DNA of 64,000 nucleotides, from the NCBI GenBank assembly GCA_022826965.1, contig JAJDTU010000009.1, positions 124,001 to 188,000 on the forward strand, read 5' to 3'. Numbering within the stretch: the stretch's first letter is position 1; every line of letters starts with the position of its first letter. Below are positions 20,166 through 25,755 of the stretch, in pieces. The DNA comes from Dehalococcoidia bacterium (GTDB taxonomy: Bacteria; Chloroflexota; Dehalococcoidia; Bin125). The notes under the pieces are model-generated. The model saw only the letters and a list, made by a program, of their open reading frames with translations. It did not search any database and was not told the origin of the DNA. Position numbers and translations under genes: made by a program.

Positions 20166-20732
20166 TCAGGGAACGATGCCGAGTGTGCGCTGGATCTGGC
20201 GGACGTGGAAGAGCTGATGATCGGCGGCGGTGAGCGCGATGGTTCGCAGGGACATATCGAGCACGTCGCCGTCCAGTTCGATGTTGGCCGGTTCGCGGAG
20301 CTGATCTGATGACAGGTCCGCGAGCAGGCGCTCTGTGTCTTCGCGCACGCTGGTCAAGGCCCAGCGGAGTTCGGGCAGCGATGCCTCCGACTCCGTATCG
20401 GGCAGGTTGACGCCGCCAACGGGTGGGATCGGGAGCTGCGGGGCGACCTCGCGGCGCAGCAGCATGAGTTGAGGATGCAGCCACCGCTCGGAGTGGACGA
20501 CGTGCAGGAGGATTTCGCGAACAGACCATTCGGCGGGCCCGAGGCGTTCGTCGAGGCGATCGTCGGCACAGGCGTCGAGCAACGATCGCAGTTCTTCGAA
20601 GTTCTGGGCGAGCGCAGCCTCGATGTCGACGGGGACGTTTACAGAATCAGCGATGATGTTTACCTCAACCTGTACCCAACGCGTGGGGCGTCGCGCACAG
20701 TGTCGATGAACGGCGGCGGCGGGACAACTCAC
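20166..20732 (-). CDS. DinB-like four-helix protein
   Basis: A 188-residue DinB/YfiT-like protein. The helix GPAEWSVREILLHVVHSE contains the first His of the usual metal triad, and the terminal ADHQLFHVRQIQRTLGI contains the other two (HxxxH spacing). Family members are putative Zn- or Ni-dependent thiol-transfer enzymes, or are of unknown function. The only in-frame start before the first helix is a GTG at 20732, which leaves an untypical N-terminal 25 residues; a rarer start codon nearer to the helix is possible. It is divergent from the DUF309-dUTPase gene. Confidence 0.8.
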   Translation of the reverse strand: MSCPAAAVHRHCARRPTRWVQVEVNIIADSVNVPVDIEAALAQNFEELRSLLDACADDRLDERLGPAEWSVREILLHVVHSERWLHPQLMLLRREVAPQLPIPPVGGVNLPDTESEASLPELRWALTSVREDTERLLADLSSDQLREPANIELDGDVLDMSLRTIALTAADHQLFHVRQIQRTLGIVP

Positions 20733-20763: not shown

Positions 20764-21648
20764 ATGGCCCGAGTTCGTGAGACCCCGTCCCGAGCCGAAC
20801 AACTTTCGCTTGAACCGACGGTGTCTACCGAGCATCGGGCCGAACTCGCGAAGGGCGCGGCGGAGTGGGATGCGAAGCAGTTTTTCGACGCTCACGAGAC
20901 GTGGGAAGAGATCTGGCAGGTCGAGCGTCGAACCGTCCGGAGCTTCTACCAAGGGTTGATCCTGTTGGCCGCCGGGTTGCATCACTGGACCAGCACGCAC
21001 CGGCCTCGCGGGGTGCGAATCAAGTTGTCATCCGGAATTGAGCGCCTGGCGCCGTATGCGCCGTCGTACCTCGGGGTTGACGTGTCGACGACGATCGGCG
21101 ATGCGGCGGCTCTGCTGCGCCAGGCGCCCGACGATCCAGCTGTGTTGGCGGACACGCCGCTGGACAACTTCCCGCCGTTCCGTTGGGCTGTGACGGACGG
21201 CGGCAGGCTCGGAGCCCTGCGCGTGCGGCGATTGCGCGCGGCGGCGCAGTTGCCCACGCGCGGCTCCGAGCTGTCTTCCGGTCTGGACCTGTATGCCGAC
21301 CTGTCGGAGTTGGGCGGTTCGCTCAACCTCACATTGATGCCGCAACCGGTGCCCACCGGCATTGCCTGCGCACCGCCGCCGGGCTACGAGATCCAGATTC
21401 GACCGCGTTCGGGTCTGACGCGCCGGGGCGTGGAGATCGGTTGGGGCACGGTCGATGCGGACTACCGCGGTGAGTTGCTGGTCTCGATGTCGCTGCGCGG
21501 GCCGTCAGGACGCGGCTACCGCATCGAACACGGTGATCGCATCGCACAGCTGGTCGTGGCGCCGGTCGCGCTGTCTGCCGTGGAAGAGGTGGATGAACTG
21601 GACGACACCCCGCGCGGCGCCGGCGGGTTCGGCTCGACGGGCCGCTGA
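20764..21648 (+). CDS. dut: DUF309-dUTP diphosphatase fusion
   Basis: A 294-residue two-domain protein. Residues 25-125 match DUF309 (FFDAHETWEEIWQ, then FYQGLILLAAGLHH), a small all-helical domain of unknown role. Residues 155-294 are a complete trimeric-type dUTPase with all five motifs: SSGLDLYA (motif 1), RPRSG (2), GTVDADYRG (3, catalytic D231), EHGDRIAQ (4) and GAGGFGSTG (5). The dUTPase half converts dUTP to dUMP and pyrophosphate, protecting DNA from uracil. The reading frame is continuous with no slippery site, so the fusion is real in this sequence. The fluC-type gene starts three bases after the stop. Confidence 0.93.
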   Translation: MARVRETPSRAEQLSLEPTVSTEHRAELAKGAAEWDAKQFFDAHETWEEIWQVERRTVRSFYQGLILLAAGLHHWTSTHRPRGVRIKLSSGIERLAPYAPSYLGVDVSTTIGDAAALLRQAPDDPAVLADTPLDNFPPFRWAVTDGGRLGALRVRRLRAAAQLPTRGSELSSGLDLYADLSELGGSLNLTLMPQPVPTGIACAPPPGYEIQIRPRSGLTRRGVEIGWGTVDADYRGELLVSMSLRGPSGRGYRIEHGDRIAQLVVAPVALSAVEEVDELDDTPRGAGGFGSTGR

Positions 21649-21651
21649 TCG

Positions 21652-22023
21652 ATGACGGTGGCGGCGATTGCCTCGATTGCGCTCGGCGGCGCGGCCGGTT
21701 CGGTGCTGCGCTACCTGCTCAATCGCTGGGTCGGGCAGCCGGACGGCTTGCCGCTGGGCATCCTCGTGGTCAACCTGAGCGGGACGCTGGTGCTGGGTCT
21801 GGTGGCAACGCTGTTCCTGGAGCGACTCGGCGTGTCGGACAACATGCGCCTGGCTATCACGGTGGGGTTGCTGGGCGGCTTCACGACGTTCTCGACCGTC
21901 TGGTTGGACACGCTGCATCTGCTCAACGGAGGACGCTGGGTCTGGGCGTTGACCAACCTGCTGCTGTCCGCGGTGGGCGGATTGGCCGCCGCGTGGCTGG
22001 GCCAACAGCTGGCTCGGCTCTAG
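21652..22023 (+). CDS. crcB: FluC/CrcB fluoride channel
   Basis: A 123-residue four-helix Fluc-type fluoride exporter. Motifs are GGAAGSVLRYLLNRW, ILVVNLSGTLVLG (the conserved pore Asn) and GLLGGFTTFST with the fluoride-track TTFST. The channel works as an antiparallel dual-topology dimer; only one gene is present, so it may be a homodimer. It starts three bases after the dUTPase fusion gene and is probably expressed with it. No fluoride riboswitch was recognised upstream. Confidence 0.93.
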   Translation: MTVAAIASIALGGAAGSVLRYLLNRWVGQPDGLPLGILVVNLSGTLVLGLVATLFLERLGVSDNMRLAITVGLLGGFTTFSTVWLDTLHLLNGGRWVWALTNLLLSAVGGLAAAWLGQQLARL

Positions 22024-22117
22024 CTTCGAGACTTAACTTCGAGGCGGTTTCGCGCTCCGCCGCCAAGGCGGGAATGTGTATAGAGTGGCTACAGGCGACG
22101 GGGCGGTTGTGCCACTG

Positions 22118-23512
22118 ATGTCCCAAATACCTACGCATCCTCGACGGCGTGGCGTCGGGTTCGTCGCTCTCTTTGCCATTTTGCTCATTTGCTCATTCAT
22201 CCTCTCGGCCTGTGGATTGTTCGGCGGCGACGACGAGCAACCGGACGTCGTCGAGCGTCCCGACACGGCGGCCGAGACGACGCAAACCAGCGAGCCCACG
22301 GCGACGGCGGCGGCGACTCAATCGGAGGCCCAACAGCAGCAGACTGCTCAGCCGACCGAGACCGTGCGGGTGACGACATCGTCGTCGCAGGAGGACGCCG
22401 CGCAGCAGCAACAGGCCGATGCCGCGGTCGACGAGCCAGAGACCGACCCCAGCATCTACATCGTCCAGCCGGGCGACACCCTGGCCCAGATCGCGAACCG
22501 GTTTAACGTACGTATCGACGATCTGATCACACTGAACGGGATCCAGGATCCGGACGTTCTACATGTCGGTCAAGAACTGAGGATTCCGGGCCAGGAACAG
22601 GCCAGCAGCGAGTCGGACGATGCCGAAGAAGAGCAAGCGGCTCAAGACGAGCAGCAAGAGGCAGAGGACGAGCAGATAGAGCCGCCGAGTGTCGAGCTGC
22701 CGACCGTTGCCGTTCCGGCAGCGACGCCGACGCAGGTGTCGTACACGCAGTTCCCCCAGCCGGGTCCCGAGCAGACGACCGACACGATCCCCGATCCGCC
22801 GACCAACTTCCTGCAGTACGGGGCGGCGGCATTGCCCTGGTTGCATGGGATCAACGAGGTGGAGCCGATCATCGAGCTGTTCAAGGCCTGGCCGATGCCT
22901 CCCCTGGCAGTCGGGAACGATCGGATCGTGCTCGTCGACACATCCGACGACGGCCAGTTCTCCGCTTCGATCATCTACACGGACCCGAATTCGTTCGGCG
23001 CTGCCGTTCCCTACTCGAACCTGGTTGTCTATGACCCGGTGCCGGGAGTTCCGTCGAAGTATCGGATCGCGTACGACCACGCGCTCAGCTACGCGCGGGA
23101 GGTTCAGGGGTTGCAGCAGCTCGTCGACGTCGATCTGACCGGGGACGCCGTTCGCGACCTCACGTTCCGCGAGATCACGTGCGACGAGTCGGGCTGCGTG
23201 AGCAGCTTCTATGTCCTTTCGTCGACAGGCGACGGCTACCGGACGGTGACGAGCGCGGCCGCGCAGGTCGGCGCGGTCTCAGCGATTGAGATCCTGGATC
23301 GCACGGGCGATGGAGTGCCCGACATCGTGGTCAATGGCCTGGCGATGGACGAGTCGGTCGCCTCGCGCTACACCTTCGTGTTCACGGTCCAGGGCGACAG
23401 CCTGATCGAGGCGTTGAGGATCGCGTTGGACGGCAGTCCAGCGGACGAGGCGGATTCCGCGGACAGCGAGGATGCCGAGGGGCAGGAGGAAGACTCGCTC
23501 GAGGAGGAGTAA
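22118..23512 (+). CDS. LysM-domain lipoprotein
   Basis: A 464-residue exported lipoprotein. A basic n-region, a hydrophobic stretch and the lipobox LSAC (Cys 32) predict lipid attachment. A long Thr/Glu/Gln-rich, probably disordered linker follows. Next is one LysM domain (about 113-158; from YIVQPGDTLAQIANRF to LHVGQELRIPG) that should bind cell-wall glycan, then a second acidic linker. The C-terminal domain (about 225-450) contains two Asp-rich, EF-hand- or FG-GAP-like turns (DLTGDAVRDL and DRTGDGVPDI). ATG 22118 is chosen because it gives a normal signal peptide; an upstream GTG at 22076 would add 14 residues. TAGAGT at 22081-22086 may be the -10 box. Confidence 0.85.
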   Translation: MSQIPTHPRRRGVGFVALFAILLICSFILSACGLFGGDDEQPDVVERPDTAAETTQTSEPTATAAATQSEAQQQQTAQPTETVRVTTSSSQEDAAQQQQADAAVDEPETDPSIYIVQPGDTLAQIANRFNVRIDDLITLNGIQDPDVLHVGQELRIPGQEQASSESDDAEEEQAAQDEQQEAEDEQIEPPSVELPTVAVPAATPTQVSYTQFPQPGPEQTTDTIPDPPTNFLQYGAAALPWLHGINEVEPIIELFKAWPMPPLAVGNDRIVLVDTSDDGQFSASIIYTDPNSFGAAVPYSNLVVYDPVPGVPSKYRIAYDHALSYAREVQGLQQLVDVDLTGDAVRDLTFREITCDESGCVSSFYVLSSTGDGYRTVTSAAAQVGAVSAIEILDRTGDGVPDIVVNGLAMDESVASRYTFVFTVQGDSLIEALRIALDGSPADEADSADSEDAEGQEEDSLEEE

Positions 23513-23655
23513 CTGCCCCCTGCGGCGGTCCGAAGCGTTCGCAGACCCTGATTGCCCGCTGCCACCGGGAGGCATAGCCTCAGACGGGTAGCTCCCGCAG
23601 CCCGAGCATGGTTCGAGTCGTGTTGGCCGGCTGCGCCGAGCGGGTGATGTAGTCG

Positions 23656-25755
23656 ATGTCCCTCGTCAGCCGTCCGTCCAGGCGATTCGGCACCCGGTCG
23701 GCGCATCTCTTCTGGCGTCTGCCGTTGGTGGGCCGGGTCCGGGTTCCGCGCAACCTCGTTCCGCTGCTGCTGGCGGTGGCGGTCGGACTTGCAGCCGGAT
23801 TCGCGGCGGTGGCGTTGAGCGCCCTGGTCGATGGCCTGACCATGGTGTTCGACGAGCTGACATCGCTGCTTGATGGTCTCGCGGGCGGCTGGACCCTGAT
23901 GCTGGTTCCGGCGATCGCGGCGATTCCAGTGGCGTTCGTCGTCTCGCGGGTGGCCTCGGAGTCGCAGGGCGCCGGCGTGCCTTATGTCATGGTCGCGGTC
24001 GAGCGGGCCGGTGGATTCGTGCGACCGATCATTGCGCCGGCCAAGCTGGTGGCGACCGGATTCACGCTGGGAGGGGGCGGCGCCGCAGGACGCGAGGGTC
24101 CGATTGTCCTGATCGCGGCGTCCCTGGCGTCGACGATCGGTCGGGTGACGAAGCAACCGTCGGACATGCTGGTCCTGATGGTCGCGGCGGCGGCGGCGGG
24201 TGGAATCTCGGCCACGTTCAACACGCCGATCGCGGGGACGTTCTTTGCGCTCGAGGTGGTGCTGCGGCGGTTCAACGTGCGCAACTTCACGATCGTGGTC
24301 GTGGCTGCGGTGGTCGCGAACATCGTCGCCGTGGCCTTCTACGGCGACTCGGCCGGTCTCGACTTGCCCGACTTCGACATCAACAGCAGTTGGGAACTGT
24401 TCCTGCACGCGATCGTCGGGATCTCGGCGGCGATTGCCGGGATTCTCTTCGTGCGAACGCGCTTTTTCACCGAGGACGTGTTTGAGTTCCTCGGCGTGTC
24501 GATGTCGGTTCGGCCGATTCTGGGCCTGTTCGGCGTCGGTGTGTTGGCGCTGATCGAATCGAACATTCTTGGTTCCGGGCTGGACCAGATCAGGATCTTC
24601 GCCGAGGGCGATACGGCCGTATCGACGCTGGCGATCATGATGGTGCTCAAGCTGGTTGCGGCTTCGCTGACGATCGGCTCGGGCGCTTCAGGGGGGGCGT
24701 TTGCTCCGCTGCTATTCGTGGGCGCGACGCTGGGCGCCCTGATGGGCGCGGGATTCGAGTCGGCGCTGCCGAGCATCGTGGGACCGACCGGCACGTATGT
24801 CGTGGTGGGTATGGCGGCGGTCTTCGCGGCGGCTGCGCGCGCGCCGTTGACCTCCCTGTTCATCGTGTTCGAGCTCAGCGGATACTCGCTGATCCTGCCC
24901 TTGATGACGGCGGTGGCGCTGGCCGCCGCGCTGGCCCAGCTGTTGACCCGGGACACGATCTACAACGTCCGGCTACGCCGAGCCGGACTGGACGTCCACG
25001 AGGAGTCGGGGCCATCGCCACTTGACGATCTCACCGTGGCGGCGACCATGCGCACGGACACGCCGATCGTGTCGCGACTGGCGACGATCACGGACCTGGC
25101 CAACGCCATGAGTCAATCACGAGGGAACGTGGTGGCGGTGGCCGACCAGCGCAACCGCTTCATCGGCCTGGTGACGGCGACTGACGTAGCGTCGGCGGTT
25201 GAGCGCGGCGAGATGGATCGACGGGCGTTCGACCTCGCGGTCGTCGCGCCGGTCTTCGTTCACCCCGACGACAACCTGCGCTATGCGCTGTCGGTGCTGG
25301 TCGATCACGATGTGCGCCAGCTGCCCGTGGTCGCGCGTGAGGACGAGACGCGCTTGATGGGCATGCTGACGCAGCGCGACGTCCTGCGTGAGGTCGCTCA
25401 GCCGAGCGACCGGGACGCGGGCCAGCGGGCCGCGCCGGCGCCGGTGCGGCGACTGGTCGGCGCGATCGAGATCGAGGCGCGGGTGGAGCCCGGTTCGCGG
25501 GCCGAGTCGAGCATGGTCTCGCAACTGCCGCTGCCTGAAGCGTCGGTGATCACGGCGATTCACCGGCGCGGTGAGATTGTGATTCCGCGAGGCAACGTGA
25601 AGCTGTTGGCGAACGACTTGGCGATCGTGCTGTCGGTGCCGCCGGAGGAGGCGACGGTGCGGTCGCTGTTCATCAACCACACTGAGCAATCGCGGAACAA
25701 CTGGTGGTTCTTGCCGCACGCGCCGCCGTCGCCCAACGACGAGTCGCAGAGTTGA
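23656..25755 (+). CDS. ClC-family chloride channel/transporter with CBS pair and RCK_C domain
   Basis: A 699-residue protein. The ClC core spans about 35-435 with the selectivity segments GAGVP, GREGPIV (the gating Glu is present) and GASGGAFAPLLF. The inner Glu that carries protons in E. coli ClC (E203) is Val here (FALEVV), and the pore Ser of GSGIP is Ala; together these suggest channel-like or altered coupling. A CBS-domain pair (about 458-580) and a C-terminal RCK_C/TrkA-C-like domain (about 595-675) should bind nucleotides or other ligands and regulate the pore. It is a stand-alone gene with 143 unremarkable bases upstream. Confidence 0.92.
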   Translation: MSLVSRPSRRFGTRSAHLFWRLPLVGRVRVPRNLVPLLLAVAVGLAAGFAAVALSALVDGLTMVFDELTSLLDGLAGGWTLMLVPAIAAIPVAFVVSRVASESQGAGVPYVMVAVERAGGFVRPIIAPAKLVATGFTLGGGGAAGREGPIVLIAASLASTIGRVTKQPSDMLVLMVAAAAAGGISATFNTPIAGTFFALEVVLRRFNVRNFTIVVVAAVVANIVAVAFYGDSAGLDLPDFDINSSWELFLHAIVGISAAIAGILFVRTRFFTEDVFEFLGVSMSVRPILGLFGVGVLALIESNILGSGLDQIRIFAEGDTAVSTLAIMMVLKLVAASLTIGSGASGGAFAPLLFVGATLGALMGAGFESALPSIVGPTGTYVVVGMAAVFAAAARAPLTSLFIVFELSGYSLILPLMTAVALAAALAQLLTRDTIYNVRLRRAGLDVHEESGPSPLDDLTVAATMRTDTPIVSRLATITDLANAMSQSRGNVVAVADQRNRFIGLVTATDVASAVERGEMDRRAFDLAVVAPVFVHPDDNLRYALSVLVDHDVRQLPVVAREDETRLMGMLTQRDVLREVAQPSDRDAGQRAAPAPVRRLVGAIEIEARVEPGSRAESSMVSQLPLPEASVITAIHRRGEIVIPRGNVKLLANDLAIVLSVPPEEATVRSLFINHTEQSRNNWWFLPHAPPSPNDESQS

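Follow-up and report, generated by a model that had tools for sequence, protein, structure and literature searches.

The window analysed here, a stretch of 64,000 nucleotides from a contig of a Dehalococcoidia bacterium, contains a gene in which a DUF309 domain is followed by a dUTPase domain. The frame runs unbroken for 294 codons, from the ATG at 20764 to the TGA at 21648. The gene, its features and the adjacent downstream gene are:

20764..21648, + strand: fused DUF309-dUTPase gene, 294 amino acids plus stop, identified from the frame, Pfam, NCBIfam and relatives
20791..21150, + strand: DUF309 helical domain, residues 10-129 with the Pfam core at 29-80, from AlphaFold helices and a Z score of 17.1 to 2IJQ
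20893..20916, + strand: DUF309 signature HExxExxW, residues 44-51 (H44, E45, E48, W51)
20962..20964, + strand: codon of residue 67, from an alignment of fused and unfused DUF309
21187..21213, + strand: interdomain linker, residues 142-150, variable, with low pLDDT at 145-148 and a four-codon insert in some relatives
21214..21645, + strand: dUTPase domain, residues 151-294, from Pfam, NCBIfam and structure matches
21274..21303, + strand: dUTPase motif I, SGLDLYADL region, residues 171-180
21400..21417, + strand: dUTPase motif II, RPRSGL, residues 213-218
21445..21477, + strand: dUTPase motif III, GTVDADYRGEL, residues 228-238, with the catalytic Asp and uridine-stacking Tyr by homology
21532..21558, + strand: dUTPase motif IV, GDRIAQLVV, residues 257-265
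21613..21642, + strand: dUTPase motif V, RGAGGFGSTG, C-terminal arm, residues 284-293
21652..22023, + strand: crcB, fluoride channel family by Pfam, starting 3 nt past the fused gene

Pfam placed DUF309 (PF03745) at residues 29-80 (E 2.3e-16, 59.7 bits against a cut-off of 27) and dUTPase (PF00692) at residues 161-293 (E 4.4e-20, 72.2 bits against a cut-off of 22), while the NCBIfam dut model TIGR00576 matched residues 153-294 (E 3.1e-33, 114.5 against a cut-off of 102.55). A genome-wide profile search of the source genome yielded one match to each of the two families, both inside this gene. Frame, Pfam, NCBIfam and motifs thus confirm the preliminary description of a DUF309 domain joined in frame to a dUTPase with all five motifs. 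The AlphaFold monomer model (mean pLDDT 91) contains six helices and one short helix in the N-terminal part (residues 10-129), a joint of low confidence at residues 145-148 and, beyond the joint, an all-beta domain. The pTM of 0.58 suggests that the relative placement of the two domains is not fixed.

The fused gene is immediately preceded by a DinB_2 superfamily gene of opposite orientation (20166-20732, -), and the Pfam scan revealed no sequence link between it and DUF309. On the other side, positions 21652-25755 are occupied by crcB, a LysM-domain gene and a CLC channel gene with CBS and TrkA_C domains, in that order. crcB is probably co-transcribed with the fused gene, outside the fusion itself.

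All five dUTPase motifs are intact, the majority of their residues are invariant in an alignment of 15 relatives, and their assignment was also backed by alignment to solved dUTPases. A Foldseek search with the model of this domain returned dUTPases in all of the best 50 rows (E 2e-11 to 4e-10), with a high rmsd over the whole alignments. The C-terminal part would thus represent a normal homotrimeric dUTPase that converts dUTP to dUMP and PPi, with active sites predicted to form between subunits and motif V acting as the closing arm. Searches of phage and plasmid sequences gave no match covering 80% of the fused protein, the rows listed spanning the dUTPase part only, and the idea that the fusion came from a phage or plasmid was rejected on these grounds.

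In the DUF309 half, H44, E45, E48 and W51 show no variation, and this extends to class members and loci that had not been picked by a motif pattern. Residue 67 is Leu in 15 of 15 fused proteins and Gln or Lys in every unfused DUF309 of the class with which they were compared, a difference that hints at altered constraint following fusion. The model of the domain matched the solved DUF309 structures 2IJQ (Z 17.1, rmsd 1.9 over 114 residues) and 2CWY (Z 11.4, rmsd 1.9 over 94 residues). The next matches were TPR-like and other helical folds, with TPR chains at Z 7-9, a range common for helical bundles; besides DUF309 itself, no family in the fold search stood clearly above this helical background, and a Pfam scan of the fused protein at E 0.001 gave no match to a TPR family. 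DUF309 occurs in both bacteria and archaea, as seen in the control genomes of Bacillus subtilis, Synechococcus, Thermus, Haloferax and Sulfolobus. Our literature search by family, structure and gene name found no function for DUF309, and the text matches to its name that we examined were to numbers such as DUF3090 and DUF3093.

To quantify the conservation of the joint, we compared the gene with its relatives. The same in-frame joint is present in 14 of the 15 genomes of the genus, the source genome included, as well as in G017, which belongs to a sister genus (61% identity), so that the architecture sought in other genomes following the preliminary description is indeed common to several of them. 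The only genus member lacking the joint, G006, had no match to either part. Identity to the source protein spans 61-94% in the set of 15 genomes, and the linkers differ in length by whole codons only, all indels being in-frame. Within the genus, NG86 omega ranged from about 0.04 to 0.12 in DUF309 and from about 0.06 to 0.13 in dUTPase, with higher values in the linker in most comparisons. These low values indicate that both domains are under purifying selection. The relatives from the genome scan are recorded as Dehalococcoidia or Chloroflexi metagenome bins, several of them with bin names of marine sponge origin.

We also examined the gene order in two further sister genera, represented by three genomes, in which DUF309 and dut are separate genes in the same order. 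The GTG of dut shares 1 nt with the DUF309 stop in G015 (TAGTG), the two genes overlap by 7 nt in G018 (GTGCTGA), and they are 10 nt apart in G019. Since the separate genes overlap or nearly touch, the fusion is best read as having been born by collapse of a tight DUF309-dut pair, which a small indel could have joined. In the DUF309 tree, the fused sequences form a single clade (100/96) adjoining the unfused sisters, and in the dUTPase tree the unfused G016 groups with the fused G017 with weak support (93/81). Such a grouping would mean that the DUF309 part was lost in G016 or that two fusions occurred, and because it is weak, it leaves uncertain how many fusions and losses took place. G016 contains dut and has no DUF309 anywhere in the genome, which demonstrates that dut can persist without DUF309. 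At this locus (L033:4022-7675), dut is preceded by unrelated sequence, with an IS1595 transposase nearby, in what amounts to a natural loss of DUF309.

A survey of 294 genomes of the class, in which all counts are lower bounds and kinship is ignored, identified DUF309 in at least 104 genomes, a dUTPase match in at least 135 and both in at least 79. Among the latter, at least 35 from seven families have the two either fused (15) or as close, co-oriented neighbours (20), DUF309 in these 20 lying upstream of dut within about 2 kb. A dUTPase match was obtained for 79 of the 104 genomes with DUF309 versus 56 of the 190 without it, counting the matches listed and ignoring kinship. Among the matches listed there were also 25 genomes with DUF309 and no dUTPase match, and 44 with both families in which the two do not appear together. 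DUF309 and dut are separated by an alpha/beta hydrolase gene at many unfused loci, and the genes often overlap by a few bases. This hydrolase belongs to the Abhydrolase_1/6 families and has a GHSSGG-type nucleophile motif.

The order DUF309, alpha/beta hydrolase, dUTPase is seen in several families (L125:4706-6430, L128:4336-6623, L132, L133, L037, L039, L134 and L135). One genome, G153, the only one of its family in the set, has a single ORF of 414 amino acids immediately before dut, in which DUF309 is joined to the alpha/beta hydrolase (L123:5271-6515, -). In class families with DUF309 away from dut, the neighbours include a two-component system, an ABC/FtsX exporter and a trypsin-like protease, and no single common partner emerged.

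The pairing was not recovered outside the class. No DUF309 gene was found close to a dUTPase gene in other Chloroflexota classes among the matches listed, and 65 DUF309 loci, mostly from other phyla and selected by motif pattern, had no dut within flanks of up to 8 kb, some of the contigs being shorter than this. On the basis of these loci and listed matches, we rejected the idea that adjacency of DUF309 and dut is a general bacterial trait. Other arrangements were observed at these loci. At 15 loci in Planctomycetota (within L063-L121), DUF309 is followed, mostly after 30-220 bp, by a gene for a protein with a LON substrate-binding domain, which in several cases precedes the gene for GTP cyclohydrolase I (folE), while the genes for endonuclease III (nth) and dCTP deaminase (dcd) are divergent and upstream of DUF309. 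In Acidobacteria (L065, L070, L071, L072 and L093), dnaX is located 275-420 bp past DUF309 on the same strand.

The reading that we favour, and to which we give about an even chance of being correct, is that of a lineage-specific two-domain protein that arose by collapse of the DUF309-dut pair and consists of a normal dUTPase with a tethered accessory DUF309 domain. DUF309 would here be a TPR-like alpha-helical module on a short flexible linker, and the dUTPase trimer would display three such modules. DUF309 is most likely a separate accessory or interaction module, and probably dispensable for dUTPase catalysis. Several observations sit uneasily with this reading. The joint has been retained under purifying selection in the genus and in a sister genus, and DUF309 and dut are repeatedly adjacent in seven families, both of which suggest that the merger was not a matter of chance alone. 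In addition, unfused G016 groups, albeit weakly, with fused G017 in the dUTPase tree, and the TPR-like matches beyond the two DUF309 structures are at Z scores common for helical bundles.

The preliminary description went further and proposed that the fusion ties DUF309 to nucleotide sanitation. In this alternative, which we consider possible but doubtful, DUF309 has a role in dUTP or dNTP housekeeping, where it would control, localise or extend the dUTPase, for instance by bringing the enzyme to the replication machinery or through action on a related nucleotide. The recurrence of the DUF309-dut order in seven families of the class, the high co-occurrence of the two families, and the location of DUF309 beside the divergent nth and dcd genes in Planctomycetota and just before dnaX in some Acidobacteria are all consistent with such a role. 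However, the hydrolase that often intervenes, and that is once fused to DUF309, is not a nucleotide enzyme by Pfam, and in the matches listed for the class DUF309 occurs both without dUTPase and apart from it. The absence of the pairing from the other Chloroflexota matches and from the 65 loci of other lineages, as well as the loss of DUF309 from G016 with retention of dut, further argue against it, and with partners this numerous some DNA and nucleotide genes are expected by chance. The proposed tie to sanitation was thus upheld in part: the conserved order within the class speaks for it, while the intervening and fused hydrolase, the solitary dut of G016 and the different neighbours outside the class do not. 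Since DUF309 fuses with and adjoins other genes and dut stands alone in a relative, an involvement of DUF309 in nucleotide sanitation is a weakly supported possibility, and the recurring operon of DUF309, hydrolase and dut is the better lead.

Alternatively, the merger may have been neutral, with DUF309 having an unrelated job, sharing only a transcript with dut, and the fusion persisting because it is harmless. With gene ends that overlap, a small indel would readily produce a fusion, the neighbours of DUF309 vary by lineage, and in G153 DUF309 has joined a different downstream gene, so that a merger by itself does not reveal the function of the domain. Yet the association of DUF309 with dut is broader than the fusion, spanning the seven families, and both domains have been retained throughout the genus under purifying selection, and we regard a neutral merger as unlikely. 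In a more speculative model, to which we attach rather little probability, the Dehalococcoidia would possess a single physical module for housekeeping in which DUF309, as the helical adaptor, docks either the alpha/beta hydrolase or dUTPase, and the two kinds of fusion would be snapshots of the complex of all three.

It is very improbable that the gene gives two products, with an internal start near the joint also yielding free dUTPase and fusion being only partial: the GTG codon of V154 is present in 15 of 15 fused genes and dut of the unfused sisters starts at a GTG or ATG a few codons earlier, but V154 lies inside the first dUTPase strand, by eye no conserved ribosome site precedes it, and the GTG of V143 is not conserved. 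Finally, although the scan named metagenome bins as relatives and some close relatives have two ORFs, an assembly or frame error, which the preliminary description had raised together with a joint found nowhere else and split genes in relatives, was rejected with near certainty, given an unbroken frame, the same in-frame joint in 15 genomes at 61-94% identity, linker lengths that shift by codon units only and low omega in both domains.

The DUF309-dUTPase fusion of this group of uncultured Chloroflexota is accordingly real and conserved, and it seems to be undescribed as far as the literature searched is concerned, in line with the earlier remark that no described fusion was known. Two structures of DUF309 have been solved, and we found no role assigned to the family, for which the conserved fusion and recurring operon supply concrete partners in the form of dUTPase and the alpha/beta hydrolase. 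If DUF309 alters the behaviour of the dUTPase, this would be the first function for the family; if it has no effect, the locus would represent a clear gene fusion by operon collapse, with the before-and-after series intact.

Compared to known systems, the C-terminal part shares its five motifs and length with the trimeric dUTP diphosphatases (PF00692/TIGR00576), with identities to solved dUTPases mostly of 24-42% in the structure search, whereas the helical DUF309 domain that makes up the first 145 or so residues sets the protein apart from a plain trimeric dUTPase. That domain has its fold and HExxExxW signature in common with 2IJQ (Haloarcula rrnAC1037) and 2CWY/2CXD (Thermus TTHA0068), but these are stand-alone proteins while DUF309 is here joined to an enzyme, and position 67, Gln or Lys in the unfused class members compared, is Leu in the fused clade. 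The fusion in G153 likewise has DUF309 at the N-terminus, merged with the next gene of the same operon, but its partner is the alpha/beta hydrolase rather than dUTPase. The thymidylate kinase fusion of a baculovirus, pelu112, reportedly has dUTPase as its partner. It has been described as a fusion involving enzymes of nucleotide metabolism (PMC4895240). Its partners work in a single pathway, whereas the dUTPase studied here is joined to a domain without known function.
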